A DNA stretch of 64,000 nt. Source: Planctomyces sp. SH-PL14. GTDB taxonomy: Bacteria > Planctomycetota > Planctomycetia > Planctomycetales > Planctomycetaceae. Position 1 is the first letter of the stretch. Every line of letters begins with the position of its first letter. Below, piece by piece: positions 44,126 through 59,286 of this stretch. The position numbers were made by a program, and so were the translations under genes. Where the stretch lies: positions 2,250,001 to 2,314,000 of the forward strand of contig NZ_CP011270.1 in assembly GCF_001610835.1 (NCBI RefSeq), written 5' to 3'. Under the pieces are notes generated by a model. It saw only the letters and a program-made list of their open reading frames with translations. It was not told the DNA's origin and did no database searches.

Positions 44126-45157
44126 GTGATAAGCGTCGTGTGCGGATCCCGCCACGACGCTTTTTTGTTGTCTGTTAAGGATCGCCTCGCCGCCGCCAGC
44201 GTCCAACCCTCGCAAGAGACTCCTCCCGAATCCACCTTGACGGCATTCGTAGACAGATACGTCGTCAAGCGGCGTGAGTCCAGAATCACCCCCACGGCTG
44301 CCGACAACATCCGACGGCATCTGGAGTACATGCAGAGAAAGCTCGGCCCAGGCCTTGATGCTTCGGCAGTCGGGGGCAAGCATGTCGACGATCTCCATCA
44401 GGCGTTGCTGCAGGACTGCGAAGGAAAACGCTTCACGAAGACATATGCGGCGGACATCTTCAAGACTGCGAAGATGTTCATTCGCTGGCTCCACGAAACT
44501 GACGTTCTTACCCAGCTCCCGAAGAACTTGACGTCCCGGGCTCTGCGGATCACTCGGGTACCGCCCGTCATCAAGACCTACCCTGTGGAACAGATCCGAG
44601 AACTGTTTGCAGCCGCTCCCGAGGACCTCAAGCTCTACATCCTCCTGGCTCTGAATTGCGGAATGACGCAGGTCGACATCAGCACGCTGAAGCCTGAGAG
44701 CGTCGATTGGGAGGCCGGAACGCTGACTCGCAAGCGAGGAAAGACCATCCACTTTGAGCGGGTTCCCACGGTCACCTACAAGCTGTGGGGCATCACGCTC
44801 AGGCTCCTGAAGAAGCTACGATCTGACGATCCGAACCATCTGCTGCTTTCCTCGAATGGGAAGACTCTTCGAGGCGAGGAACTCAGGAATGGCAAGCTTG
44901 TTCGACGGGATCCGATCCGCGTGGCATTCCAGCGACTTCGGAAGTCACTAGGGCGGTCGGGCGATTTCAAGAGCCTGAAGAAGACGAGCGCCTCACTTCT
45001 GCGAGACAATGTTGAGTTCAATGGCATCGAGGCGGTCTTCCTCGACCACGCGCCAAAGTCGATGTCGGATCGACACTACGCCACGGTTCCAACGGCCCTG
45101 CTGGCGAAGGGGCTCAAATGGTTGGAAACGGTTTACGATCTGACCTCGCTTCCTTGA
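44126..45157 (+). CDS. Tyrosine recombinase/phage-type integrase, possibly N-truncated
   Basis: At most 343 residues. The core-binding domain is about residues 38-135 (TLTAFVDRYVVKRRESRITP) and the catalytic domain about 150-335. The C-terminal boxes are LKKTSASLLRDN (the position of H-x-x-R in the family) and FLDHAPKSMSDRHYATVP, with the nucleophilic Tyr in DRHYATV. Box I reads NCGMTQVDISTLKP, lacking the usual Arg, so catalysis is doubtful. The first ~14 codons run through a perfect terminator hairpin, so true translation probably starts later, for example at a TTG near 44164, or the gene has lost its original 5' end. Base composition looks less GC-rich than the neighbours, suggesting transfer. 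The following gap, 45158-45404, is AT-richer and holds no gene. Confidence 0.8.
   Translation: MISVVCGSRHDAFLLSVKDRLAAASVQPSQETPPESTLTAFVDRYVVKRRESRITPTAADNIRRHLEYMQRKLGPGLDASAVGGKHVDDLHQALLQDCEGKRFTKTYAADIFKTAKMFIRWLHETDVLTQLPKNLTSRALRITRVPPVIKTYPVEQIRELFAAAPEDLKLYILLALNCGMTQVDISTLKPESVDWEAGTLTRKRGKTIHFERVPTVTYKLWGITLRLLKKLRSDDPNHLLLSSNGKTLRGEELRNGKLVRRDPIRVAFQRLRKSLGRSGDFKSLKKTSASLLRDNVEFNGIEAVFLDHAPKSMSDRHYATVPTALLAKGLKWLETVYDLTSLP
44131..44166 (+). terminator. Rho-independent terminator of the DUF1559/lipoprotein operon
   Basis: AGCGTCGTG (44132-44140) pairs with CACGACGCT (44153-44161), and an inner GCGG/CCGC adds four more pairs around ATC. TTTTTT follows directly. It lies 89 bases after the lipoprotein stop and overlaps the nominal 5' end of the integrase frame. 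Confidence 0.88.
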
Positions 45158-45404: not shown

Positions 45405-47342
45405 TTGGATGTTTGGGAGTCTGCCGGAAGTGAGCTGGTCGCGGAACACAGGCCAATGTTCAATCGCATTCGCACATCGTGCTGGGAATGGACCGCGGAA
45501 CGGATCCTCCGAAAGGCAAAACAACTCGAGCAATGCTCGAGCGACCGGCTCGAACGGGATCGTGCGGAACTGGGGGGCGCCGTCCGGCGCCGGCAACCGG
45601 TCTCTTCGATCATCGGCGAGGTCTTCGCGCTTGGCATCGAGACGACGCGGCGCGTGCTGGGCAAGAGGCACTATCCCGTCCAGGTCATGGGGGCGATCGC
45701 CCTGGCACGGGGGTTCGTGGCCGAGATGCAGACCGGTGAAGGGAAGACGTTGACCGCCGTCCTGCCGACATTGCTGCACGCCCTGGCCGGCAAAGGCTGC
45801 CATGTCCTGACCGCCAACGAATACCTCGCCCGCCGCGACGCCGCCGAGATGGCCCGGATCTTTGCGGAACTGGGGCTCACGACCGGCTGCGTCCTCGACG
45901 ACATGGACGATGACGCCCGCCGGACCGCCTACGCCTGCGACATCACCTATGGAACCGCCGCCCAGATCGGCTTCGATTTCCTCCGGGACCGCCTGAAACG
46001 GGGCCCCCATCCCGACGAAGCCGCCCCCAAGGGGGCGGCCGGAGGGTGGCGCGAGTCGAGAGTTCAGCGCGGACTTCACATGGCCCTAATCGACGAAATC
46101 GACAGCGTCCTGATCGACGAGGCGAAGACGCCGCTGATCATCGGCATCGAAGACCGGGACCGGCCGGAGATCGAGAGCCTGTACCGGTGGGCCGATCACT
46201 GCGCCCGGACCTTCGACCCGGCGGAGGATTTCCAGGTCGATCCCCGCACGAGACAGGTCGACCTGACGGACCTGGGCAGCCGCAAGGTGACGCTCCTCTC
46301 CAAACCGCTTGCCCTGGACCAGATCGATTCGGAGACGATCTGCCTGCACGTCGAACGGGCATTGACCGCGCATCGCGTTTTCCACCGGGATCGGGACTAC
46401 GTCGTACGGGAAGAGGAGATCGCGATCGTCGACGAGGGGACGGGCCGGATCATGGAGGGGCGGAAGTGGCAGGACGGACTCCATCAGGCGATCGAGGTCA
46501 AGGAACGGGCCCCCTTGTCCGCCCAGACAGGCTGTGCGGCGCGGATCACCGTCCAGTCGCTGTTTCGACGCTACGAGCATCTGGCCGGGATGACCGGGAC
46601 CGCCGGTCCCGCGCGGCGGGAGTTCCGGAGTGTCTATCGGCTCCCCGTCGTGCGGATCCCGACGCACCGCCGCTGCCTGCGGTTCGGACTTCCCCCCCGC
46701 GTCTTCCCGACGCTCCGGGCGAAATGGGAGGCGGTCGCGGAATCGACCCTCCAGGGGATCGCGACGGGACGGGCCGTTCTGATCGGGACTCCTTCCGTCG
46801 AGGCGTCGCAGGGGCTGAGCCGCATCCTCGCGGAGGCGGGCGTCGAGCATGAGGTCCTCAATGCGATCCGGCACGCCGAGGAAGCCCCCATCGTCGCGAG
46901 GGCGGGCGAAGCGGGACGGGTCACGGTGGCGACCAATATGGCGGGACGCGGGACCGACATCCTCCTCGCCGAATCGGTCCGCCGCGCCGGCGGGCTGCAT
47001 GTCATCGCCACGGAGCTCCACAGCTCGGCCCGGATCGACCGCCAGCTGGTCGGCCGCGCGGGCCGACAGGGGGATCCGGGGAGTTTTCAGTTCTTTCTAT
47101 CACTGGAGGACGAGCTGCTCCGCACCCTCCCTCCGTCGCGGCTCGCCCGCCTGCGGAAGGGGGGGCAGGCGTCGGGCTCGTCCGAGCTGGCTCCCGAGTG
47201 GGCCCGCCTCTTCGAGACAGCCCAGCGCCGCATCGAGATCGGGCAGTCGCGCCAGCGTCGACAACTGCTGACCACCGAGAGACAGCGGGCCCAGCGCTAC
47301 CACTACCTCAGACTGGACCCGTTCCTGGAGCTTACGGAATAA
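45405..47342 (+). CDS. Short SecA paralogue (SecA-like translocase ATPase)
   Basis: A 645-residue SecA-type motor, well below the 850-1000 residues of housekeeping SecA. Walker A is AEMQTGEGKTLTAVLP (GEGKT at 111-115). The Walker B/DEAD region is LIDEIDSVLIDEAKTPLIIG. A preprotein cross-linking domain-like segment follows, then the second motor domain with VATNMAGRGTDILL and GRAGRQGDPGSFQFFLSLED. After that only ~75 residues remain, so most of the helical scaffold/wing domain and the C-terminal zinc tail are missing. Start is TTG 45405; an ATG at 45456 is an alternative. It sits head-to-tail with a set of HlyD, M50 and TolC-like genes, suggesting a dedicated rather than general export role. 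Confidence 0.9.
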   Translation: MDVWESAGSELVAEHRPMFNRIRTSCWEWTAERILRKAKQLEQCSSDRLERDRAELGGAVRRRQPVSSIIGEVFALGIETTRRVLGKRHYPVQVMGAIALARGFVAEMQTGEGKTLTAVLPTLLHALAGKGCHVLTANEYLARRDAAEMARIFAELGLTTGCVLDDMDDDARRTAYACDITYGTAAQIGFDFLRDRLKRGPHPDEAAPKGAAGGWRESRVQRGLHMALIDEIDSVLIDEAKTPLIIGIEDRDRPEIESLYRWADHCARTFDPAEDFQVDPRTRQVDLTDLGSRKVTLLSKPLALDQIDSETICLHVERALTAHRVFHRDRDYVVREEEIAIVDEGTGRIMEGRKWQDGLHQAIEVKERAPLSAQTGCAARITVQSLFRRYEHLAGMTGTAGPARREFRSVYRLPVVRIPTHRRCLRFGLPPRVFPTLRAKWEAVAESTLQGIATGRAVLIGTPSVEASQGLSRILAEAGVEHEVLNAIRHAEEAPIVARAGEAGRVTVATNMAGRGTDILLAESVRRAGGLHVIATELHSSARIDRQLVGRAGRQGDPGSFQFFLSLEDELLRTLPPSRLARLRKGGQASGSSELAPEWARLFETAQRRIEIGQSRQRRQLLTTERQRAQRYHYLRLDPFLELTE

Positions 47343-47381
47343 GTCCCGTGATGGGGTGTCGCGGGGGGGGCGGGCCGCCGC

Positions 47382-49463
47382 TCACCACCATAGCTTCCGC
47401 TGCACGAACTCCAGCAGGTCGCCGAACAGCACGTAACCGAGGCTCCGCGGACCGCAGTGCAGCCGGGCGGTCACCTCGGCCCCGATCCTCCGACCCGGCA
47501 GGTCGTTGGGAACGATCTCCACGAAGACTTCGACGACGCTCCCCTTCTCCTGGGATTCGTTGGACCGGCTCCCGATGGCGGAGAGCGCCCCTCGCTTCAC
47601 CTGCGTGACCGCCGTCGCCGCCACGAACTCGACTTCGACCGGGGGCACCGGGGCGGCCGGGGCGGTCCCCGGCCCGCGGTGGGCCTCCAAGAGGTGCCCC
47701 ATCCGGTACTCCGGGACGTCGAGCTCCAGCCGCCACGGTCCGTCAACGTCCATAATCTGCAGCAGGAGGTCGCCCCGCTTGACCGGACGGTCCAGCAGGT
47801 TCTGTCGCGTCTGGAAGGTCGCCACGCATCCATTGGCGGGCGATCGAACGACGAGGCCCTCTTTTCGGCTGAGGACCTTCGCGCGGCGTAGCCGGGTCCC
47901 TTCCAGTTCAATCTCCACCTTGCGGAGTTCGCCCGCCAGACGCAGGGCCTCCTCTTCGTTGCCGCGCGCTCCGGCCCGCTCCCGTTGCTGCCCCAGGGAC
48001 TCGATCTGCTTCTGTTTCTCGCGAACGACGTTCTCCGCCTCGAGAAGCTCGGTCTCCAGGTCGTCGCTCCGCAACACCGCCAGCACGGTCCCCCGCTCCA
48101 CGGTCTGGCCGTTCTCGGCCGAGACATCCACCACGATCCCGTCCCACGGAGCGAAGATCTCGTGCTGGACCGCCGGCATCGCCTGGCCGCGGGCTTCGAC
48201 CCGGTACTCCCAGGGGACGAAGGCGAGCGCCCCCCCGACGAGGGCCAAGAGGGCACAGACCGCTCCGGCCAGGGCCAGCCGTCGTCCGCGGCCCCACCGG
48301 CAGGCGCGGCCGACCGCTTTCCATAGCGGTAGAAGGAAGATCGTCTCGTGGTCGCGGGCATTGCTCAGAGCGGCCGCGACCTGTTCCGCCACGAGCACGC
48401 CCCGGGCACGGACGAGGTCCGTCGGGGCGCTCTCCGAGAACTGCTCCAGGACCAGGCAACCGATCACCTCGCCCGCCGGGGGGCGGCGGCGATCGACGAG
48501 GTCCTGTTCGATCCGTTCGTGCGGGACGTTCTTCCGCAGCGGGAGGATCGTCACCATCCGGGACCGGCTCTCCTCAAGGAACCCTGCCAGCGGGTCCGCC
48601 AGAAACGAGGGGAACCCGTCGAGCGTCCCCTCGTAGAGGACCGGCTCTCCGTATCTGGACGCCTCGCGAGCCAGGGTTGCCAGCCGCCGGACGAGGTTCG
48701 CCCGATTCTGCAGGGACTCCTGTCCGCTCACCGCCGCCACGCGGCAGGACGATCCCGTGCGAAGGGCGACGCTGATCCGGTCGCACTCCAGCAGGACGCG
48801 GCCGTCGTTGGCGGCGACCTGGGCCACGGCGGAGACCGAGAGGCTCTGCTGCAGCGAGAGCACGAACGCGCTGAACGGTTCCCAGAACGGATCGGCGGCC
48901 GCAGCCGGCGCCGGAACGGGAGCCGCGTCGAGGCGGCTCAGGAGCGCGCCGATTTCGCTGCAGACAAGAGTCTGCCATTCCGGGTCATGCGGGGCGGCCG
49001 CCGGGAAGGCGAGTTCGAGGACGACCGTTCGCCCCGCTGCCCAATCGACACGTCGCCGGACAATCCGGACATCCGTTCCGGCCGGCGTGCTCCATTCGGC
49101 CGTGCTGACCGTTCCCGACTGGAAGGCGGCCCGGACGGCGTCCATGTGCCCCCCCTCCAACAGCAGGCGGCCTCCCGCGGCGACGAGACGGCTAACGCCG
49201 CCGCTGGCGACGAGTTGGAACCGGCCCGGAGCCTCCTGCTGCCACAGGAAGGCGGCCGCCAGGTGCTCGCCGTCCGATGCCGCGTCGAAGAAGCGGGCAA
49301 TCCGCGCCGGGCCGTTCCCCGGAGCGTCTCTCAGCTCCTCAGCCCGCTGTCGCGCCCAGGAAAGCCATACGGCCTGCGGCGACTCCGCCCTCATCGGTGA
49401 ATTCCTTGTTGCGATCTGTCTCCAGAGGGGCATAGCATCCAGTGGCTTTGCGACCGATTGCAA
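47382..49463 (-). CDS. GAF-domain membrane-fusion (HlyD-like) adaptor
   Basis: Up to 693 residues. Residues ~30-380 are cytosolic and contain one or two GAF-like sensory domains (SAVAQVAANDGRVLLECDRISV, ESRSRMVTILPLRKN, GEVIGCLVLEQFSE). One membrane helix follows (about 395-417, ALAGAVCALLALVGGALAFV). The periplasmic part starts with the lipoyl half-motif EIFAPWDGIVVDVSAENGQT, then a coiled-coil hairpin (LLEAENVVREKQKQIESLGQ), the second lipoyl half (KEGLVVRSPANGCVATF) and beta-barrel domains. It is divergent from the next gene with only 42 bases between them if the first start is used; in-frame ATGs at 49433 and 49394 leave more room. GAF on an adaptor is unusual and suggests cytosolic ligand control of export. 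Confidence 0.85.
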   Translation of the reverse strand: MQSVAKPLDAMPLWRQIATRNSPMRAESPQAVWLSWARQRAEELRDAPGNGPARIARFFDAASDGEHLAAAFLWQQEAPGRFQLVASGGVSRLVAAGGRLLLEGGHMDAVRAAFQSGTVSTAEWSTPAGTDVRIVRRRVDWAAGRTVVLELAFPAAAPHDPEWQTLVCSEIGALLSRLDAAPVPAPAAAADPFWEPFSAFVLSLQQSLSVSAVAQVAANDGRVLLECDRISVALRTGSSCRVAAVSGQESLQNRANLVRRLATLAREASRYGEPVLYEGTLDGFPSFLADPLAGFLEESRSRMVTILPLRKNVPHERIEQDLVDRRRPPAGEVIGCLVLEQFSESAPTDLVRARGVLVAEQVAAALSNARDHETIFLLPLWKAVGRACRWGRGRRLALAGAVCALLALVGGALAFVPWEYRVEARGQAMPAVQHEIFAPWDGIVVDVSAENGQTVERGTVLAVLRSDDLETELLEAENVVREKQKQIESLGQQRERAGARGNEEEALRLAGELRKVEIELEGTRLRRAKVLSRKEGLVVRSPANGCVATFQTRQNLLDRPVKRGDLLLQIMDVDGPWRLELDVPEYRMGHLLEAHRGPGTAPAAPVPPVEVEFVAATAVTQVKRGALSAIGSRSNESQEKGSVVEVFVEIVPNDLPGRRIGAEVTARLHCGPRSLGYVLFGDLLEFVQRKLWW

Positions 49464-49505
49464 GGTCGTCTTCCGATCCAGAACTCATCCAGTTAAGGGC
49501 CGTTC

Positions 49506-50444
49506 GTGACACCCTTGCGCTCGGGGTCCGCCGGCTGTCGGCATGCGACAGCCATCCTGCTCCTGTTGCTCGTGGCACGGCCCGCGGTCGCCGCGGAGGA
49601 ACCGCGCCGCGCTGCCGCGGAGGTCGAGTCCGTTCCCGCCCGGCTCCTCTTCGTCGACCGGCACTCACTGGCGTTCGAACGGGCCGGCGTCCTGGCCGAG
49701 GTCGCGGCCGAAGGAAGCTGCGTCCGACGGGGCGAGGTGGTCGCCCGGTTGAAGGCCGAGGTCGCGGCGGCCGCGCTGGCGGTGGCCCGGGCCCGCGTCG
49801 CGAATGAGGCAGAAGTCGTCGCGGCCCGATTGCAGTTCCAGGCGGCGGAGGCGGAGTTCGAGGCCGCTCAGGCCGCCAACTCCCGCGCGCCGGCGCTGAC
49901 CAGCCTGTCCCTCCCGCCGGTGTCCCTCAACGTCTTCGAGTCGACCGCGCTGAATCGGCTGCGGCTGGCCCGGGAAACCGCGGCGGCCGAGATCGAAAGG
50001 GCCCGGAAGGAACAGACCGTCCAGGAGCGCTCCCGCGACCAGGCGGCGGCGGAGTTGGAGTCGTTTCGGCTGCTCTCTCCCCTGGACGGACTGGTGACGC
50101 GAGGCTTCAAGCGGCAGGGGGAAGGAGCCCAGGGAGGAGAGACGGTTCTGGAAGTCCTCTCGACCCGGAGGATCCGCGTGGAGGCGGACATCCAGGTGGC
50201 CCAGACCGCGCGGCTCGCGGTTGGAGAGGAGATCGACGTGCTCGTCACCCGCATCCCCGGGGACGAGGCGGGTCAGGAGACGCGCCGCGCGAGACTCGGC
50301 TTCGTCGATCCGACCGTCGAGCGGGTCTCGCAGACCGTGCGGGTCTGGGCCGACATCGACAATGGGGACAACCGCCTTCGGGAAGGGCTCCCAGCGAAAC
50401 TCCTGCTTCCGGGCCGCGGACCGGCGGCCGGGACCGCGCGCTGA
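49506..50444 (+). CDS. Secreted HlyD/RND-type periplasmic adaptor subunit
   Basis: A 312-residue membrane-fusion protein. A signal peptide lies at about residues 14-31 (TAILLLLLVARPAVAAEE). The first lipoyl half is ERAGVLAEVAAEGSCVRRGE, a long coiled-coil hairpin spans ~85-185, the second lipoyl half is FRLLSPLDGLVTRGFKRQGE, and a beta-barrel domain follows (IRVEADIQVAQTARLAVGEE). Translation begins at GTG 49506. It ends 12 bases before the M50 fusion gene, indicating one operon. It presumably bridges the inner-membrane parts to the TolC-like protein. Confidence 0.88.
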   Translation: MTPLRSGSAGCRHATAILLLLLVARPAVAAEEPRRAAAEVESVPARLLFVDRHSLAFERAGVLAEVAAEGSCVRRGEVVARLKAEVAAAALAVARARVANEAEVVAARLQFQAAEAEFEAAQAANSRAPALTSLSLPPVSLNVFESTALNRLRLARETAAAEIERARKEQTVQERSRDQAAAELESFRLLSPLDGLVTRGFKRQGEGAQGGETVLEVLSTRRIRVEADIQVAQTARLAVGEEIDVLVTRIPGDEAGQETRRARLGFVDPTVERVSQTVRVWADIDNGDNRLREGLPAKLLLPGRGPAAGTAR

Positions 50445-50456
50445 GGAGAGACGAGG

Positions 50457-52682
50457 ATGCTTCAGGGATCGCTCGAACAGGGGGGGGCGGCGCTCGACCG
50501 TCCCGTCCCCTTCCGGAGACGGGTCGACCTCGACGTCGCTTGGATGGACTTTCGCGGGCGGCGATACGCCGTCCTCAAGGACCCGTTGTCTCTCCGCTAC
50601 CACCGGCTCTCCCTGGACCAGCACGGCGTCCTGGCGCGGCTCGACGGAGAGCGGAGTCTCCGCCAGATCCGGGCCGATCTCCAGAGGGAATTCCCATCAG
50701 AATACTTCGCGCTCCCGGACGTCCAGGGGGTAATCCTCGGGCTCCACGAAAAGGGGCTGCTCACGGCGCTGCGGATGGGACAAGGTCCGACACTCGCCCA
50801 CCGGGAACGGGAGCAGCAGAGACGGACGCTCTTCGCCGCCCTGAGGAACCCGCTGTCGATCCAGCTTCCAGGCTGGGATCCCGACCGGTTCCTGACGCGG
50901 CTCGAGCCGCTGGTCGGGTGGCTGTTTCGGCCGCTGACGCTTGCACTGGCCGGAGGAGTGATCGCCGGCGCGCTCGTCTTCGTGGCGGCTCACTTTCGGG
51001 ACGTGCAGAACCGGCTGCCGGAGTTCCAGCGGTTCTTCGGCTGGCCCAATCTCCTGTTCCTGTGGCTGACGCTGGCGACGATCAAGGTGGTCCATGAGCT
51101 GGGACACGGGTTCGCCTGCAAGCATTTCGGGCGGGAGTGCCATTCGATCGGCGTGATGCTCCTCGTCTTCAGCCCGACGATGTACTGCGACGTGACCGAC
51201 GCCTGGATGCTGCGGAGCAAGTGGGAGAGGATCCTGGTCAGCGCCGCCGGGATGTACTTCGAGGCCCTTCTCTCGACGGTGGCGCTCGTGGTGTGGTGGA
51301 ACACCGAACCGGGGCTGCTGCACTTCCTCTGTCTCAACACGTTCTTCGTCTCCGCCGTCTCGACGGTGATCTTCAACGCCAACCCACTGCTTCGGTACGA
51401 CGGCTACTACATCCTGTCCGACCTCCTCGAGATCCCGAACCTGCGGCAGACCGCCGACCGGCTCATGCAGCGGACCATCGCCCGGACTGGGCTCGGGATC
51501 GAGCTCCCGCCGCAACGGGACCTGCCCGAGTCGGGGAGGCCCTGGTTCCTGCTTTACGTCGTCGCGAGCGCAGTCTACCGCTGGATCGTCTTCGCCGGCA
51601 TCCTCACCTTCTTCTACACCGTCCTGAAGCCTTACCGGCTGCAGAGCCTGGGGATCGTGATGGCCGTCGCGACCGTCGGGCTGGCGCTCGGCGGAACCGT
51701 CATGAACTTCGTCAAAATGTTGAAAGAGCCTCGTCGCGATCCGCCGTCGGCGCGCCGCATCCTCATCGCCTCCGGGGTCCTGGCGGCGAGCCTCGCGGGA
51801 GTCCTCTTGCTGCCGGTGCCCTGGTCCATCGAGGCTCCATTTTACATCGAGCCCGTCAGGGCCGTTCACCTCTACAACACAGTGTCAGGAGAGATCGTCA
51901 AGAGGGAAGTCGGGGAGGGAGATTCTGTCGCGGCCGGGGATGTCGTGATCGTCCTCGACAGCCCCGAGTTCGAGGCGCGGTTCGACGCGGTGCGAACGGA
52001 TTTCGAGGCGTCCCTGGCGGAGGCGGAGGCGTGGGAGGCCGCGGGACGACCTGATGCCGTGGCCCTGGCTCGACAACGCGTGCGCTCGACCCAGGAGACG
52101 CTCAACCAATTGAAGGAAGAGTCTCATCGTCTTGTCGTGCGGAGCCCGATCGCAGGGAGAGTCTGCGCCCCGCCCCGCGTCGCCGCGCCGACCTTGGAGG
52201 TCGAACGTGAGCGTCTCTCTGGATGGTCAGGCACACCGCTCGACCGGAGGAATCTCGGAGCTTTCCTGCAGGAGCAAACCCACATAGCGACGATCGCCCC
52301 TGTGGAGCAATGGCAGGCGGTCCTCGTCATGGACCAGACGGAACGGGAAGAACTTTTGGTCGATCGTCCCGTTCGGTTGAAGCTCGAGGAACTCCCCCAG
52401 CGGGTCCTGGATGGGCGGATTGCAGAAATCTCCCACCGGCATCTGGAGCTTGCCCCGCGGGGCCTCTCCAATCGCTACGGCGGACCGCTGGTGACCGTGA
52501 CGGACCCGCAAGGACGGGAAAAGCTCACGAGCGTGACTTACCAGGCGATCGTCCCGCTGGACATCGAGTCAAACTTAGCCCGTAGTGGCATGCGCGGAAC
52601 GGCCCGCATCCATCTGACCGACCGATCGCTTGGGGAGTGGCTCTGGAGATCTTTTTGGACCACATTCCAGTTTCGACTGTAG
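50457..52682 (+). CDS. PqqD-like / M50 metallopeptidase / HlyD fusion protein
   Basis: A 741-residue three-part protein. Residues ~20-108 look like a PqqD/winged-helix module (YHRLSLDQHGVLARLDGERS), a fold that binds peptide substrates in RiPP systems. Residues ~155-470 are a polytopic M50-type peptidase: HELGH at 213-217 in KVVHELGHGFACKHFG and the second motif NANPLLRYDGYYILSD (309-324) with Asp315. The C-terminal ~260 residues are a HlyD-like periplasmic arm (LYNTVSGEIVKREVGEGDSV, then VVRSPIAGRVCAPP). GAGGAGAGACGAGG-like SD precedes the ATG. It follows the adaptor by 12 bases and precedes the TolC-like gene. A peptide-binding, processing and adaptor role in one export complex is inferred. 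Confidence 0.88.
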   Translation: MLQGSLEQGGAALDRPVPFRRRVDLDVAWMDFRGRRYAVLKDPLSLRYHRLSLDQHGVLARLDGERSLRQIRADLQREFPSEYFALPDVQGVILGLHEKGLLTALRMGQGPTLAHREREQQRRTLFAALRNPLSIQLPGWDPDRFLTRLEPLVGWLFRPLTLALAGGVIAGALVFVAAHFRDVQNRLPEFQRFFGWPNLLFLWLTLATIKVVHELGHGFACKHFGRECHSIGVMLLVFSPTMYCDVTDAWMLRSKWERILVSAAGMYFEALLSTVALVVWWNTEPGLLHFLCLNTFFVSAVSTVIFNANPLLRYDGYYILSDLLEIPNLRQTADRLMQRTIARTGLGIELPPQRDLPESGRPWFLLYVVASAVYRWIVFAGILTFFYTVLKPYRLQSLGIVMAVATVGLALGGTVMNFVKMLKEPRRDPPSARRILIASGVLAASLAGVLLLPVPWSIEAPFYIEPVRAVHLYNTVSGEIVKREVGEGDSVAAGDVVIVLDSPEFEARFDAVRTDFEASLAEAEAWEAAGRPDAVALARQRVRSTQETLNQLKEESHRLVVRSPIAGRVCAPPRVAAPTLEVERERLSGWSGTPLDRRNLGAFLQEQTHIATIAPVEQWQAVLVMDQTEREELLVDRPVRLKLEELPQRVLDGRIAEISHRHLELAPRGLSNRYGGPLVTVTDPQGREKLTSVTYQAIVPLDIESNLARSGMRGTARIHLTDRSLGEWLWRSFWTTFQFRL

Positions 52683-52816
52683 CGGTTGCGCCGGCGCTTC
52701 CGGCGGCTTTGGACCGGGACCGCAGGGGACGACGATACGAGCGGTCGACGGAACAGGGAGTCTCCGTCAGGGTCTTTCAATTCTCTTCTCCCACATCAAC
52801 GTGACGGATCCGCACG

Positions 52817-54694
52817 ATGGGCCAGCGGGAGGGCAGAGCGGGGCGACGCGGACGGTGCGCCCTCGTATGCCTCTGCGTCTTCAGTCTTGCTCTCTCTGCT
52901 TGCCGGTCTCGGTGCACACATAATGGAAACTCACCGTTAGTTGAGTTGCACGAGGCTCCCGCAAACTCTGCCGATTCGGTGTCACCAAGTAAAACGAGCC
53001 TCGTGTCATTTGAGGCGGTGCCGATCGACGAGCCTCTCCGGTTGAGAAACCGCAGAGACCTGGAGTCGTGGGACCTGCCGCTTCAGGAGGCGATCTTCGT
53101 CGCGTTGTCACGTGCCGAAGTGATTCGCCAGAACGGGCAGTTTTTTTCTCCGACCAACACGCTGCTCCGATCGCCCGACGGACTTCCTACGGTCTATGAC
53201 CCGGCGTTGCAGGAGTCCGGTGTTCTGTTCGGACAGCGTGGGGTTGAGGCGGCTCTGTCCGATTTCGACACCCAGTTCACCACGCGGACAGTTTGGGGGA
53301 ACAGCCAGCAGATTCAGAACAATCCGTTCATTGCCGGAGGGCTGCCAGCCGGTGCAACCTTGGATGAAGACGCGGCGCAGTTCCAGGCATCGTTGGACAA
53401 GACGCTTGCAACAGGCGGGCGAATCGGCATCAGCCACAATTGGAACTACTCCGCCAACAACTCCCTCGGACGGCTTCTCCCTTCGGTTTATGAAGGGAAT
53501 CTCCGCGCCGAGTTCCGGCAGCCGCTGCTGGCAGGAGCGGGAACCGAGTTCACGCGGATTGCGGGCCCCATCTCGGACAACATCCAGGGGGTGACGGGGG
53601 TCCAGCAGGGGGTCCTCATCGCCCGGATCAGCGGCAACATCACCGTCACCGAATTTGAGAGCAACGTCGCCAGTTTTCTGCGGGACGTCGAGCGGCAGTA
53701 TTGGCAGCTCCATCTCGCATATCGGACGATCGAAAGCGAGCTGGCGGGACTGCGGACTGCTCGCGAGATCTACGAGGTAGTGCAGGGCCGTGTTGGCGCC
53801 CAGGCTCCGGGCGGTGGAGCGGGACGGCTCGTCGAAGCCAGAGAAGGTGTTCTGCAATCAGAAAAACGCTCTCTGCAGGCTCTGGACGATCTTTATGCCG
53901 CGGAAGGTCAGCTCCGGCTGCTGATGGGACTGTCGGTCAATGACGGGTGCTTCATTCGGCCGAGCGATACCCCAGTCACGGCCGAGATCGCCCTCGACTG
54001 GGACTGCTCGCTCGGTGAGGCATTGGCACGCCGGCCGGAACTGCGTCGTCAGAAACTGGTTGTCGGAAGCGAGGAGCTTCAACTCATCGCGGCTGAGAAC
54101 CTCCTCCGTCCCCGGCTCGATCTCGTGGCTAGCCAACAGCTCAACGGGTTTGGGGACGACCTACTCGGGTCGGGCGAGGTCCCCGGCACGACCCGAGCGC
54201 TCGGAAGCGCCTACGGCCGCCTGTTTGGTTTGGAGGAGAGATCTTGGACCGCGGGCTTCGAGTATTCCCAGGTCATCGGACGTCGGTATGCCATCACTCA
54301 GGTGAGAAACCATGAGCTCCGCCTGGCCAAGGCCCAGGCCATCCTCCGGACGCAGGAGACGGAGATCAGCCACGAGCTGGCGGCGGCGTTTCGAGAGGTC
54401 GATCGGACTTGGCTCTCGCTCCGCAGCGAGACGGCGCTGCTGGATAATGCGCGGCTCCGCGTGGAAGTGGCCCGCCAGGAATACCTCGCCAATCGGGACG
54501 GGACCGCATTCCTGTCGCTCGAAGCGCTGAATCGTGCGGTGGAAACCCTCGCCAGGGCGGAGTCAGACATGGCGAAGGCCGAAGTCGACTACACGCTCTC
54601 GTTGACTGAAATCGAGTACCGCTGCGGACGGCTCCTGCAGTTCAACAACGTGAATCTCCAGGAAGATCTTCGGGCTGCCTGTCCTCCGCCGTGA
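52817..54694 (+). CDS. TolC-like outer-membrane efflux lipoprotein
   Basis: Up to 625 residues. A signal peptide ends in the lipobox LALSAC (Cys29). The mature protein has the two long helical OEP halves: SVAS-type first repeat around FESNVASFLRDVERQYWQLH and second around EISHELAAAFREVDRTWLSL, each followed by beta-strand-rich segments, as in TolC/OprM. LREVLARRPELRRQKLVVGS-like text (EALARRPELRRQKLV) is a family hallmark. It lies 134 bases after the M50 fusion on the same strand and is the obvious outer-membrane channel for the cluster. No clear ribosome-binding site precedes the ATG, so the start is uncertain. Confidence 0.88.
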   Translation: MGQREGRAGRRGRCALVCLCVFSLALSACRSRCTHNGNSPLVELHEAPANSADSVSPSKTSLVSFEAVPIDEPLRLRNRRDLESWDLPLQEAIFVALSRAEVIRQNGQFFSPTNTLLRSPDGLPTVYDPALQESGVLFGQRGVEAALSDFDTQFTTRTVWGNSQQIQNNPFIAGGLPAGATLDEDAAQFQASLDKTLATGGRIGISHNWNYSANNSLGRLLPSVYEGNLRAEFRQPLLAGAGTEFTRIAGPISDNIQGVTGVQQGVLIARISGNITVTEFESNVASFLRDVERQYWQLHLAYRTIESELAGLRTAREIYEVVQGRVGAQAPGGGAGRLVEAREGVLQSEKRSLQALDDLYAAEGQLRLLMGLSVNDGCFIRPSDTPVTAEIALDWDCSLGEALARRPELRRQKLVVGSEELQLIAAENLLRPRLDLVASQQLNGFGDDLLGSGEVPGTTRALGSAYGRLFGLEERSWTAGFEYSQVIGRRYAITQVRNHELRLAKAQAILRTQETEISHELAAAFREVDRTWLSLRSETALLDNARLRVEVARQEYLANRDGTAFLSLEALNRAVETLARAESDMAKAEVDYTLSLTEIEYRCGRLLQFNNVNLQEDLRAACPPP

Positions 54695-54767: not shown

Positions 54768-56117
54768 ATGCAACCGCAAATCCTTCTCGGCCTCGGGGCC
54801 GGACACTGCGGCCTGAATGTCCTGCTGGAGATTCTGAACCATCAGCCCCAGACCCGCCTAACGCTGGAGCAGTCTCCGCTCCTCCCCTGGCAGGCGATCC
54901 CCGGCCGGCCCGGGATCCGGGAGCGGTTTGCACGATGGCGGAAGAAGCCCGCCGCCGAGCGGATTGGTGATGTCGCGACCTTCTATCTTCCGTACCTTCG
55001 CGAGGCGATCGCGTTAGAGCCCAACCTCCGGGCCGTCTGTCTCCGCCGCCCCAAGGAGGAGATCGTGGCCGCCTATCTCCGCCATCTTGATCAGCCAGGC
55101 CGTCCGCGCCTCAACCACTGGTCGCGTTCTCCGGAGGTGGGGTGGACGCAGGACCTCGTCTGGACTCCCACCTTCCCGAAGTACGATGAGCCGGACCGCC
55201 AAGCCGCCCTCGAGCAGTACTGGGAGGACTACTATACGCAGGCGGACGAGCTGGCGAATCGCCATCCGGACAACGTCCTGCTCCTCGACACGGCGGAACT
55301 GGCCGAGCCTGCCGGTGTCCGGAGGCTTCTCCAGTTTGTCGGGATCCCGGAGGCGCAGCAGGTGGTCGTGCAGGCCCGTCCCCCAATTCGCTCTGCGGTC
55401 CGTACGGACGAGGCCGTTGCCGATGCTGATCCGCTCTCGCCGCGGCGGTGCGTCATCCTGGTCCCCAATTCGGGGTCGATCCATCCGGAGTGCGACCAGT
55501 CGCTACGGCAGCTTGAAGCCCGCGGATACGAGGTTCGGCGCGTCTCGGGTTACGCAGCCATCGACCAGGGACGAAACCAGATCGCGACCGATGCCCTCCG
55601 CGATGGCTTTGAGGAGACGTTCTGGATCGACTCGGATATCGGGTTCTCCCCGGAGAGCGTCGAGCGGATCCGGCAGCACGGCCTCCCGATCTGCTGCGGC
55701 ATCTATCCGCAGAAGGGGAAGCGGGCCCTGGCGTGCCACGTCCGCCCCGGGACGACGAAGATCCAGTTCGGAAAGACTGGTGGGCTGATTGAGATCCTCT
55801 ATGCCGGGACCGGATTTCTGCATGTCCGACGGCAGGTCTATCTCGACGTCGCGCAGAAGCTGCGGCTCCCGACCTGCAATGAACGATTCGACCGGCCGAC
55901 CTTCCCGTTCTTTCTGCCGATGGTGAAGCCGATCGAAGATGGGCACTGGTATCTGGCCGAGGACTACGCCTTCTGCGAGCGTGCCCGGCAGTGTGGACAC
56001 ATCGTCCAGGCCGACACCGGCGTCCGCCTGTGGCATCTTGGCCACTACCGTTACAGCTGGGAGGACGCCGGGAGGGAAACACCGCGGTTTGAGGATTTCA
56101 CGCTCAACCTGAACTGA
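54768..56117 (+). CDS. Sulfotransferase-like / glycosyltransferase-like fusion
   Basis: A 449-residue protein that seems to join two domains. The N-terminal ~200 residues resemble a sulfotransferase: GLGAGHCGLNVLLEILNHQP at the position of the PAPS-binding loop and LRAVCLRRPKEEIVAAYLRH at the 3'-phosphate loop, though the P-loop is not canonical. Residues ~225-445 look like a GT-A type glycosyltransferase (RRCVILVPNSGSIHPECDQS, FWIDSDIGFSPES with a DxD, and YLAEDYAFCERARQCG). The two halves might modify and extend one glycan or glycoprotein. It is 73 bases after the TolC-like gene and may belong to the same operon, perhaps modifying the exported cargo. Domain calls are by eye. Confidence 0.7.
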   Translation: MQPQILLGLGAGHCGLNVLLEILNHQPQTRLTLEQSPLLPWQAIPGRPGIRERFARWRKKPAAERIGDVATFYLPYLREAIALEPNLRAVCLRRPKEEIVAAYLRHLDQPGRPRLNHWSRSPEVGWTQDLVWTPTFPKYDEPDRQAALEQYWEDYYTQADELANRHPDNVLLLDTAELAEPAGVRRLLQFVGIPEAQQVVVQARPPIRSAVRTDEAVADADPLSPRRCVILVPNSGSIHPECDQSLRQLEARGYEVRRVSGYAAIDQGRNQIATDALRDGFEETFWIDSDIGFSPESVERIRQHGLPICCGIYPQKGKRALACHVRPGTTKIQFGKTGGLIEILYAGTGFLHVRRQVYLDVAQKLRLPTCNERFDRPTFPFFLPMVKPIEDGHWYLAEDYAFCERARQCGHIVQADTGVRLWHLGHYRYSWEDAGRETPRFEDFTLNLN

Positions 56118-57272: not shown

Positions 57273-58663
57273 TACTACAGCTGTAGTTCACCGGGGTGGC
57301 GGGTCATGCCCCCGAGACCGGTAATGGCACGCTTTCGCGGTCTGTTGGTGTCGACGCCGCCAGTCAGGCCAATCCAACACGCGTTGCGGCGCCATCACTG
57401 TGGCGAGGAGCAGCCGGGTCAGCAGGCTGCGAACTTCCGGGACCGTCACCGGAATCAGGTCCTCCTCTTTTTGGGGGCCACGGCCTGCACGCGATGGCGG
57501 ATCACCGCCAGCGTCGCATGCGCCAGCATCGACAACGTGATGTGGCGATACCAGCCGGGCCAGGACCGGACCTCGTAGTCGTCCAGCCCCGTTTCCCGCT
57601 TCGCCTGCTCGAAGCACTCTTCGATGGCCCACCGGCTGCCGGCGATCTGGACCAGTTTCTTCAGAGGCGTTCCCTTCGGAGCGTGGGTGAAATAGTGAGC
57701 GATCTCGTCAGGATCGCTGATCGAACGACGCACCAGCCAGCCCCGCCCGAACCCCTCCTCATGGGGGCTGGGCCAAGAGACGAACGCCCAGTCATAAAGC
57801 CGCTCCCCCTTCGTACCGGGCCCGCACGACAGACGCTTCCAGTCTCGGGAGGGGATCCCCGCCAGATGCTGGTCGACGCGCACCCGCTTTCCCTTCAGGA
57901 ACAGGTGGATCTGGGACGAGACTGCGACGACATAGCCCAGCCCCCGCTCTTCGCACAGCCTGCGCAAAGCATGGTCCGAGCCGGAGACCTCGTCCGCCGT
58001 CACCCACTGGGCCAGGATCCCTGCCTCGAGCGCTCGTTTGAGCATCTGCCGGGCCAGCTCCGGCTTTGTGGCAAAAGTCACGGACTCCGGCACCTTGGCC
58101 ACCCGTCGCCGAGTGGGGTCTTCGGCCCACTCCTGCGGAAGGTACAAGGCACGATCGATCAAAGCGTGTCCGGCGGTGGCGCGGTACCCCAAGAAGACCC
58201 CCACTTGGCAGTTCTCAATCCTCCCCGCCGTTCCGCTGTATTGTCGCTTCACCCCGACAGACTTGTCTCCCTTCTTGAGGAACCCCGTCTCGTCAACGAT
58301 CAGGATGCCATCCGCTGTCCCCAGCTGTTCAGACACATAGCCCCGGAGATCGATTCGGACCTCATCAGCATCCCAATCAGCCCGCCCCAGGAAGTGCTGC
58401 AGATTAACGGGTGTTGGTTCCCCCAGTTCCTCCGCCAGTTGCCAGCCGTTCTTCCGCTCGATCCGACTGATCAGCCCCTGCAAGTAGCGCGTCGCCCGTC
58501 GACGCAGCTCGGAGCGGGAAAAGCGTGGCCCGATCCGCTTTCCGACCGCCTCGACTTCAACCATCCACTCCCGAACATCTTCTGTTGTCGGCATCCTTGC
58601 CTCCTGGGTTGGACAGGAAGACTCTATAAACACCTCGCATTTCTCTCAAATACAGCTGTAGTA
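57273..58663 (-). mobile_element. IS701-family insertion sequence
   Basis: A 1391-bp element with short inverted ends TACTACAGCTGTAGTT (57273-57288) and its near-complement AAATACAGCTGTAGTA (58648-58663). Flanking bases are CTAG on the left and CCAG on the right; IS701 elements usually duplicate a 4-bp YTAG target, so the duplication is imperfect or decayed. It carries one intact transposase. Confidence 0.85.
57455..58594 (-). CDS. IS701-family transposase
   Basis: A 379-residue DDE transposase that appears intact. The catalytic acids are in ILIVDETGFLKKGDKSVGV, AQWVTADEVSGSD and SRWAIEECFEQAKRETGLDD. YSGTAGRIENCQVGVFLGY and AYRA-like spacing are typical of IS701. The ATG at 58594 has AGGAGG five bases upstream and is preferred to the earlier in-frame start at 58633. 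The frame fills most of the element, so the copy could be active. Confidence 0.93.
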   Translation of the reverse strand: MPTTEDVREWMVEVEAVGKRIGPRFSRSELRRRATRYLQGLISRIERKNGWQLAEELGEPTPVNLQHFLGRADWDADEVRIDLRGYVSEQLGTADGILIVDETGFLKKGDKSVGVKRQYSGTAGRIENCQVGVFLGYRATAGHALIDRALYLPQEWAEDPTRRRVAKVPESVTFATKPELARQMLKRALEAGILAQWVTADEVSGSDHALRRLCEERGLGYVVAVSSQIHLFLKGKRVRVDQHLAGIPSRDWKRLSCGPGTKGERLYDWAFVSWPSPHEEGFGRGWLVRRSISDPDEIAHYFTHAPKGTPLKKLVQIAGSRWAIEECFEQAKRETGLDDYEVRSWPGWYRHITLSMLAHATLAVIRHRVQAVAPKKRRT

Positions 58664-58687: not shown

Positions 58688-59286
58688 TCAGTAGCCGCAG
58701 TGTTGGATGTAGTTCTGGCATTCGGACGGGGAGAAGCGGTCGAGGGCTTCTGCCAACGTCGCGCACAGCGTCTCGAACGTCTTGGACGCCGCTTTGCGGA
58801 GCAGCGTTTTGAGCTTCGAGTACGCGTTCTCGATGGGGTTCAGGTCCGGTGAGTATGGCGGGAGATACAGCAGCTTCGCTCCCGTCTGATGGACCAGTCT
58901 CTCGATCCGTTCATCCTTGTGAGGAGCGACATTGTCCAGGATGACGCATTCCCCCCGCTTGAGCGTCGGAGCCAGGGACTGCTCGACCCACACGGCAAAG
59001 GCATCTCTCGTCATCGCTCCCTCCAGGACGAGCGGAGCGGAGAGTCCAGTGGTCCGGAGGGCGCACAGAAACGTGAACGTCTTCCAGTGACTGAGCGGCT
59101 GATGGTCGACGACACGCTGCGAAGTCTCTCCCCACCCATACATCCGCAACAGGCCCGTCTGGACGGCCGTCTCGTCCAGGAACACCAGCCGCTCGGCCGG
59201 AATCCGCTTCCGCAACAGAATGTCCCACCAACGACGACGCTGCCGAACATCCGGCCGCAATTGCTCAGCGGCGTACAGGCCTTCTT
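58688..59286 (-). pseudogene. IS630-family transposase, 5'-truncated
   Basis: About 190 residues of the C-terminal DDE half of an IS630 transposase: first Asp in RLVFLDETAVQTGLLRM, second in CVILDNVAPHKDERIERLV and Glu in YLPPYSPDLNPIENAYSKLK. The frame can be followed upstream through LYAAEQLRPDVRQRRRWW to about 59286, where similarity ends and an aldo/keto reductase fragment begins on the other strand. The N-terminal helix-turn-helix part is gone. It cannot transpose by itself. Confidence 0.87.

Follow-up and report, generated by a model that had tools for sequence, protein, structure and literature searches.

An ABC-free export locus of Planctomyces sp. SH-PL14 and its probable link to giant surface proteins with an N-terminal LEPR-type tag

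Secondary SecA_DEAD proteins lacking most of the wing-scaffold domain were described by Kamneva, Poudel and Ward (2015; PMC4452313). According to the accessible text of that paper, their genes have M50-HlyD, HlyD, GAF-HlyD and sometimes OEP genes as neighbours, no ATP-binding cassette (ABC) transporter is present, and the locus is distributed over planctomycetes, verrucomicrobia, proteobacteria and others. The M50 protein was proposed to be the pore and SecA the ATPase, and a four-gene operon (META1p2399-2402, with META1p2401 as the M50-HlyD gene) was reported from Methylobacterium extorquens AM1, three of its genes being silent or almost silent; the same text names no cargo, no tag and no RRE, the recognition element of ribosomally synthesized and post-translationally modified peptide (RiPP) systems. 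A locus of this type is analysed here from a 64-kb window (64,000 nucleotides) of Planctomyces sp. SH-PL14, positions 2,250,001 to 2,314,000 of contig NZ_CP011270.1. Five adjoining genes at 45405-54694 of the window had been taken in an earlier note, made from the sequence alone, for an undescribed export system. All five open reading frames (ORFs) were confirmed (Table 1), and the locus has the published features: SecA_DEAD without SecA_SW, M50-HlyD, HlyD, GAF-HlyD (GAF via homologues only) and OEP neighbours, and no ABC transporter. Because this locus type was reported in 2015, it is not undescribed. What is new here is the assignment of a cargo; cargo, signal and mechanism had been open after the 2015 description.

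The suspected cargo belongs to a second line of work. Giant genes are abundant in planctomycetes (PMC5177795; PMC11573180), and many of the longest planctomycete proteins, 8 of the top 10 in Tuwongella, start with a short motif suspected of being a new kind of export signal (PMC8567305). A planctomycete cell-surface motif goes back to Studholme (2004, as cited in PMC8567305) and is represented by Pfam PF07595. In the open-access literature searched, as far as its accessible text goes and with preprints and most subscription journals outside the scope, neither an export machine for this motif or for the related LEPR-XLL motif (NF012209) nor a cargo link of the 2015 locus was found.

With somewhat more confidence than doubt, the window locus is read here as an ABC-free, leader-guided, protease-coupled tripartite exporter of giant surface proteins, present in at least three copies in its genome. 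The M50-HlyD protein is presumed to be its core. The cargo would bear a cytosolic N-terminal tag, consisting of a basic stretch followed by a motif around L-E-P-R-x-L-[LF]-[SD]-A. The RRE domain of M50-HlyD would bind this tag, as RREs bind leader peptides, and the intramembrane site-2 protease (S2P) of the same chain would cut at or after it. The adaptor domain of M50-HlyD, together with HlyD, GAF-HlyD and the TolC-like channel, would then pass the chain across the envelope, and the truncated SecA, where present, would push with ATP or keep the chain unfolded. The window copy would serve tagged proteins whose genes lie in other parts of the genome. That the machine and the tagged giants belong together is likely; that RRE and S2P read the tag is less certain, though still the better bet.

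The association of machine and cargo was found in proteobacterial relatives. Searches of a plasmid collection with M50-HlyD matched 77 and 66 records, from which 20 loci on 19 records were hand-picked; they cover all of the 13 best records in the 66-record search except Rhizobium beringeri. Twelve of the 20 loci carry the short SecA, and the typical order is a giant gene, DUF3467, GAF-HlyD, M50-HlyD and SecA, then HlyD and TolC where present. The SecA-bearing loci are alphaproteobacterial, and all nine in which the start of the giant gene lies within the fetched DNA have a tagged giant as neighbour, with products of at least 8,199 amino acids (aa). Left out of the nine are M382 and Ensifer, whose giants overrun the fetched DNA, and R. 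johnstonii, whose record starts inside the operon. Each of the nine giants begins with a basic stretch followed by E-P-R-x-L-L-[S/N/A]-A-D (LEPR-XLL), and each scores 25-35 bits against NF012209, above the cut-off of 17 bits; in Alisedimentitalea the motif is visible only from a start earlier than the annotated one. The giants comprise those of Alisedimentitalea (8,199 aa), Pontibrevibacter (10,630), Pseudosulfitobacter (12,776 and 12,939), Methylosinus (8,865), Mesorhizobium (10,518), Rhizobium (10,175), Sinorhizobium (9,022) and Pseudohalocynthiibacter, the last split by the record start. For seven of the SecA-less loci the start can be seen, and in five of these a large protein close by bears the tag: Thalassospira (IEPRILLSAD) and, with tags of an F-D-A/G form, Azospirillum (LEPRFMFDAA), Kosakonia (LEPRMLFDGA), an Escherichia coli plasmid (LESRQLFDGA) and Tistrella (LEPRMMFDAA, 4.4 kb downstream). 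Thalassospira passes the NF012209 cut-off, Azospirillum (15.3) and Kosakonia (14.7) fall below it, and E. coli gives no match. At the eighth SecA-less locus, in Niveispirillum, the neighbour is annotated DUF4347 and its start lies outside the fetched DNA. A large surface protein had been one of the cargo guesses of the earlier note, and the tagged giants support this guess.

Several other features of the plasmid loci were recorded. The SecA-less E. coli locus lies on an IncF-type plasmid (NZ_CP081687.1, 43000-65000) with genes for TolC, two HlyD proteins and M50-HlyD beside a 4,459-aa Ig-like protein, the bearer of the LESRQLFDGA start; among 5,426 complete E. coli genomes, 24 carry its four machine genes, mostly on plasmids. 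In 7 of the 20 loci (L137, L138, L140, L141, L142, L154, L155), the giant gene is separated from the adaptors by a small DUF3467 gene. On the 62-kb plasmid NZ_CP049043.1 (L155/L157), the giant gene apparently fills more than half of the record. The short SecA of R. johnstonii (L144; NZ_CP140822.1, 3429-5413) is spread over two overlapping ORFs, perhaps by a frameshift. SapC-family genes, which are linked to S-layer export, adjoin two giant-protein loci (L136, L139).

The M50-HlyD protein was modelled from 28 sequences (mean predicted local distance difference test score, pLDDT, 85.5), and three known folds are seen in the model. Residues 17-104 resemble lasso-peptide B1 proteins, one of them with bound leader (6jx3_B, Z 9.8, root-mean-square deviation (rmsd) 3.0 over 84 residues; 5v1v_A, Z 9.6). 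Residues 197-392 resemble RseP (9j82_A, Z 10.4, rmsd 4.5 over 165) and residues 431-730 are MacA/MexA-like (MacA 9qgy_G, Z 16.7, rmsd 7.9 over 243). Fold comparison may miss folds, and absent matches were not used as evidence. As modelled, M50-HlyD is thus an RRE, an S2P and a MacA/MexA-like adaptor in one chain, and the earlier description of a peptidase that is itself fused to an adaptor arm holds, Peptidase_M50 and HlyD_3 both matching within a single ORF. The PqqD label given to its N-terminal part held less well: in the window copy the match is weak (Pfam E 0.071; TIGR03859 0.0041), whereas 9 of 28 homologues match and the modelled fold is that of an RRE. The HExxH and N-x-N...D-x-Y residues (H213, E214, H217, N307, N309, D315, Y317) are invariant in all 28 proteins.

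The best NCBIfam match of M50-HlyD is the daptide protease family NF041824 (1.1e-55, 189.3 bits, under the equivalog cut-off of 300). This similarity and the RRE fold would also suit a RiPP-like system, in which a short precursor is matured by RRE and S2P and exported by the adaptors and the channel, the giant neighbours being coincidental or merely co-regulated. Such a system would have to accommodate a tagged giant beside every readable SecA-bearing plasmid locus. Besides the known genes, no ORF family of at least 150 aa recurred widely (shorter ORFs were not clustered), and three adaptors with a TolC-like channel are, to our knowledge, unusual among RiPP clusters. A RiPP-like system is therefore considered quite improbable.

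The tag itself has no strong hydrophobic core: the highest 15-residue mean hydropathy is at most 1.83 in 22 of 23 tags, whereas two window proteins whose starts are signal-like reach 2.3 and 2.5. Thus, it is not a classical signal peptide. Its core reads hydrophobic-E-x-L-E, with E at -3 in 15 and L at -1 in 19 of the 23; the residues at 0 (E) and +2 (R) belonged to the rule by which the tags were selected. In LLSAD-type tags this core resembles the LExME core of the leader handled by the daptide protease MpaP.

The short SecA retains the DEAD motor, the preprotein cross-linking domain and the second motor domain, followed, in a model with pLDDT 83.4, by a single long helix (residues 597-634), and its Walker A, D-E-x-D and motif VI residues are invariant in 23 of 23 aligned short SecAs. 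It aligns with the solved SecA chain 3jv2_A, which we take to be Bacillus subtilis SecA, over residues 35-605 only. Judged from the model and from where the wing and the two-helix finger are placed in canonical SecA, the short SecA is without both. The canonical finger-driven push is therefore unlikely, and the usual threading through SecYEG cannot be assumed. Cargo might nevertheless cross the inner membrane via SecYEG, with the tag, RRE and S2P serving only for release or maturation, the adaptors and channel providing the outer-membrane step, and the SecA acting as an accessory. The SecA-type domains fit this arrangement, as do the lack of an obvious inner-membrane pore in the machine and the existence of SecA-less versions, which would depend on housekeeping Sec. 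However, the missing hydrophobic core of the tags and the missing wing and finger argue against it, and passage through SecYEG is regarded as unlikely. Under the preferred reading of a tag-guided exporter, a role of SecA as pushing motor is possible, with the scales tipped slightly towards doubt. SecA had been named in the earlier note as the energy source, which is only partly supported, and a SecA-like gene not conserved beside the others in relatives had been given there as evidence against the exporter. Such separation was seen in part: by inspection of the search results, 16 of the 24 M50-HlyD-bearing planctomycete genomes possess a short SecA, at most 10 kb from M50-HlyD in 11 and elsewhere in 5, and 8 have none, as is also the case for 8 of the 20 plasmid loci. 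In three genomes of the same family (G036, G052, G078), a long distance separates the best SecA match from M50-HlyD.

Co-occurrence was examined in 98 planctomycete genomes, of which 24 have M50-HlyD at E 1e-20. A profile search gave full-length M50-HlyD in the same 24; among the matches listed, the others were almost all to the adaptor part. NF012209 exceeds its cut-off in 11 genomes, 10 of the 24 with M50-HlyD versus 1 of the 74 without (p 1.3e-6, phylogeny not fully corrected). When G000, G057 and G065, whose sole match is borderline, are dropped, 7 of 24 remain (p 1.7e-4), and counted by family the figures are 7 of 16 versus 1 of 35 (p 6.5e-4).

Eighty planctomycete loci were fetched, and the 47 of at least 16 kb were used for neighbour counts, named neighbour clusters being judged from the 25 largest. 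GAF-HlyD was found near M50-HlyD in 36 of the 47, HlyD in 35, SecA in 6, DUF3467 in 4 and OEP in 3; since single-sequence BLAST was used, these counts are lower bounds. The rarity of SecA and OEP in this list, and the MacA/MexA/TolC-like character of adaptors and channel, could point to ordinary Type I secretion with an ABC transporter encoded elsewhere and with SecA and M50 as unrelated neighbours. Seven of the 47 loci do have a member of one ABC ATPase cluster at a distance of up to about 10 kb, but this equals the background (3 of 26 in control regions, or roughly 7 versus 6 per Mb), and its position varies. A Type I secretion ATPase near the SecA-less Phyllobacterium locus has its own HlyD. 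A second SecA gene is nearly confined to genomes with M50-HlyD, being found in only 1 of the 74 without (G013). Within the window, no ABC-type ORF was found by a Walker A plus LSGGQ-type pattern or by BLAST with ABC ATPases. Ordinary Type I secretion is thus very improbable, and the view of the earlier note, a tripartite exporter without a local ABC or resistance-nodulation-division (RND) transporter, is upheld. Nor do ABC genes accompany the adaptors as a constant partner elsewhere; RND permeases were not searched for by model.

Adjacency of tagged ORFs and M50-HlyD in planctomycetes is suggestive only. In matched 20-kb regions a regular expression found tags in 4 of 20 targets (L163, L164 and L176 judged genuine, L170 chance) and in 3 of 20 controls, so that targets and controls do not differ in raw counts. 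All three control matches were judged chance by eye, having no basic stretch and no LLS/LLA/FDA context; L176 was not drawn blind, its motif match being already known. Under a stricter rule, 14 ORFs were found in the 80 loci (1,257 kb), six judged genuine and eight chance, versus two chance ones in 497 kb of control sequence, which includes 398 kb of the matched-region control. Planctomycete cargo would mostly have to be scattered, as is suggested by the 52 motif genes of Tuwongella (accessible text of PMC8567305).

The 8.44-Mb genome of SH-PL14 contains four M50-HlyD genes including the window copy. It also has four SecA_DEAD genes, of which three measure 648-696 aa and the other has an open frame of 1,312 aa. 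The gene set is repeated at two further loci, which gives at least three copies of the machine. In the copy at 5.570-5.582 Mb, M50-HlyD, HlyD, GAF-HlyD and OEP are on the minus strand and SecA is on the plus strand. The sole NF012209 match of the genome at E 1 is the start of a 4,353-aa ORF (5554374-5567435, minus strand; ...RPQGLEPRIVLDATFAV), 2.5 kb beyond the M50-HlyD gene of this copy; the ORF contains DUF5649 and passenger-associated repeats. A second giant of 4,696 aa (...IETLEDRRLLSAG), with Laminin_G_3, is encoded elsewhere in the genome. Around the fourth M50-HlyD gene (G000:C1:1282033-1284231; L166), no partner genes could be recognised over a distance of about 9 kb. An initial motif pattern at the DNA level, which gave no match in the strain's own genome, was judged too strict and discarded.

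A number of observations weigh against the proposed exporter and its cargo. SecA is often absent. The SecA-less Phyllobacterium and Indioceanicola loci have a large neighbour without the motif, and the FDA/FDG-type tags (E. coli, Kosakonia, Azospirillum, Tistrella) lack the first E of E-x-L-E. In planctomycetes, 14 of the 24 M50-HlyD genomes have no NF012209 match, and five other tagged ORFs gave none either. PF07595, matched in 11 of the 98 genomes at E 0.01, occurs in 5 of the 24 with M50-HlyD versus 6 of the 74 without (p 0.09), and was set aside as a cargo marker for this weak and non-exclusive signal. Large tagged ORFs were seen by eye near just 8 of the 80 planctomycete loci (L057, L067, L072, L083, L087, L107, L112, L124; those of L067 and L087 and a second one at L124 came from an open-ended scan). 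In SH-PL14 itself, a 475-aa ORF on the other strand separates the 4,353-aa ORF from M50-HlyD, and the NF012209 score of the giant is borderline, at 17 with neighbours and 14.6 for its first 150 aa (cut-off 17). As had been noted before, no cargo gene is visible in the window; all matches in ORF scans that covered the window and a further 18-19 kb on either side were judged chance.

The layout of the window locus adds strands, which the earlier note did not give (Table 1). Four genes are on the plus strand, and the GAF/HlyD gene between SecA and HlyD has the opposite orientation; the five genes adjoin but, for this reason, do not form a single operon. The GAF label found no match in the window copy and was recovered in 15 of 21 homologues. 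The gene downstream of the locus had been read as a sulfotransferase/glycosyltransferase fusion modifying the cargo, and this role is not supported. The locus is flanked by two DDE transposase ORFs on its downstream side and, upstream, by an ORF weakly resembling a phage integrase, in keeping with horizontal transfer.

Table 1. Genes of the export locus and flanking ORFs, in window coordinates
Feature	Length (aa)	Position	Strand	Matches and remarks
Short secondary SecA-like ATPase	645	45405..47342	+	TTG start; Pfam SecA_DEAD 4.2e-93, P-loop_SecA 2.8e-52, SecA_PP_bind 2.2e-31
GAF/HlyD fusion adaptor	693	47382..49463	−	Pfam HlyD families
HlyD/RND-type periplasmic adaptor	312	49506..50444	+	HlyD_D23 2.6e-13; N-terminal segment hydrophobic
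RRE (PqqD-like), S2P (M50) and membrane-fusion adaptor in one chain (M50-HlyD)	741	50457..52682	+	Peptidase_M50 5.4e-8, HlyD_3 2.7e-5
TolC-like outer-membrane channel	625	52817..54694	+	OEP 1.4e-12; lipoprotein-like start LSAC, by eye
Downstream gene		54768..56117		Unmatched in Pfam (E 0.1) and in NCBIfam (E 0.01)
Phage-integrase-like ORF		44126..45157	+	Weak, under cut-off
DDE transposase ORF		57455..58633	−	
DDE transposase ORF		58688..59260	−	

If the link between motif and locus is true, the 2015 locus gains a cargo and the motif gains a machine. Leader recognition by RREs would then reach beyond small peptides to proteins about 4,000-13,000 residues long, and a SecA relative would work with a TolC-type conduit. 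Whether the system is a secretion class of its own is close to evenly poised. In such a class, a LEPR leader would be read by an RRE and cut by an adaptor-joined S2P, and a stripped-down SecA, or none, would replace the ABC transporter. The core would be common to planctomycetes with scattered cargos and proteobacteria with one cargo per operon, with a SecA-less form on E. coli plasmids.

Among known systems, Type I secretion (HlyB-HlyD-TolC), including that of large adhesins, shares the periplasmic adaptor, the TolC-like channel and a giant adhesin-like cargo. Type I cargo usually carries a C-terminal signal, whereas the presumed cargo here has an N-terminal tag; the window locus further differs in having no ABC transporter, an RRE-S2P unit fused to an adaptor, and a SecA relative. 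Polymorphic-toxin secretion was also considered and dropped, the accessible text of PMC3482391 having nothing on the five-gene locus. The accessory Sec systems (SecA2, SecA2-SecY2) likewise use a second, diverged SecA, and in SecA2-SecY2 the SecA2 gene sits near the cargo gene. In contrast, the window SecA is without wing and finger, has adaptors and an S2P as partners, and scores below every SecA2 cut-off of NCBIfam (TIGR03714, 505.9 against 930; TIGR04397, 578.5 against 1085; NF012136, 428.6 against 1100; TIGR04221, 421.8 against 725). The PF07595 motif and LEPR-XLL are alike in being N-terminal L-E-x-R motifs of large surface proteins and suspected export signals. Finally, the daptide protease MpaP (NF041824) also unites RRE and S2P in one chain. 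In the accessible text of the daptide paper (PMC10036551), an RRE fused to an intramembrane S2P co-occurs with ORFs bearing the motif ELExMEAP, and the leader is removed by an RRE-dependent peptidase. The substrates of MpaP are small peptides, whereas M50-HlyD has a fused adaptor arm and a presumed giant cargo.

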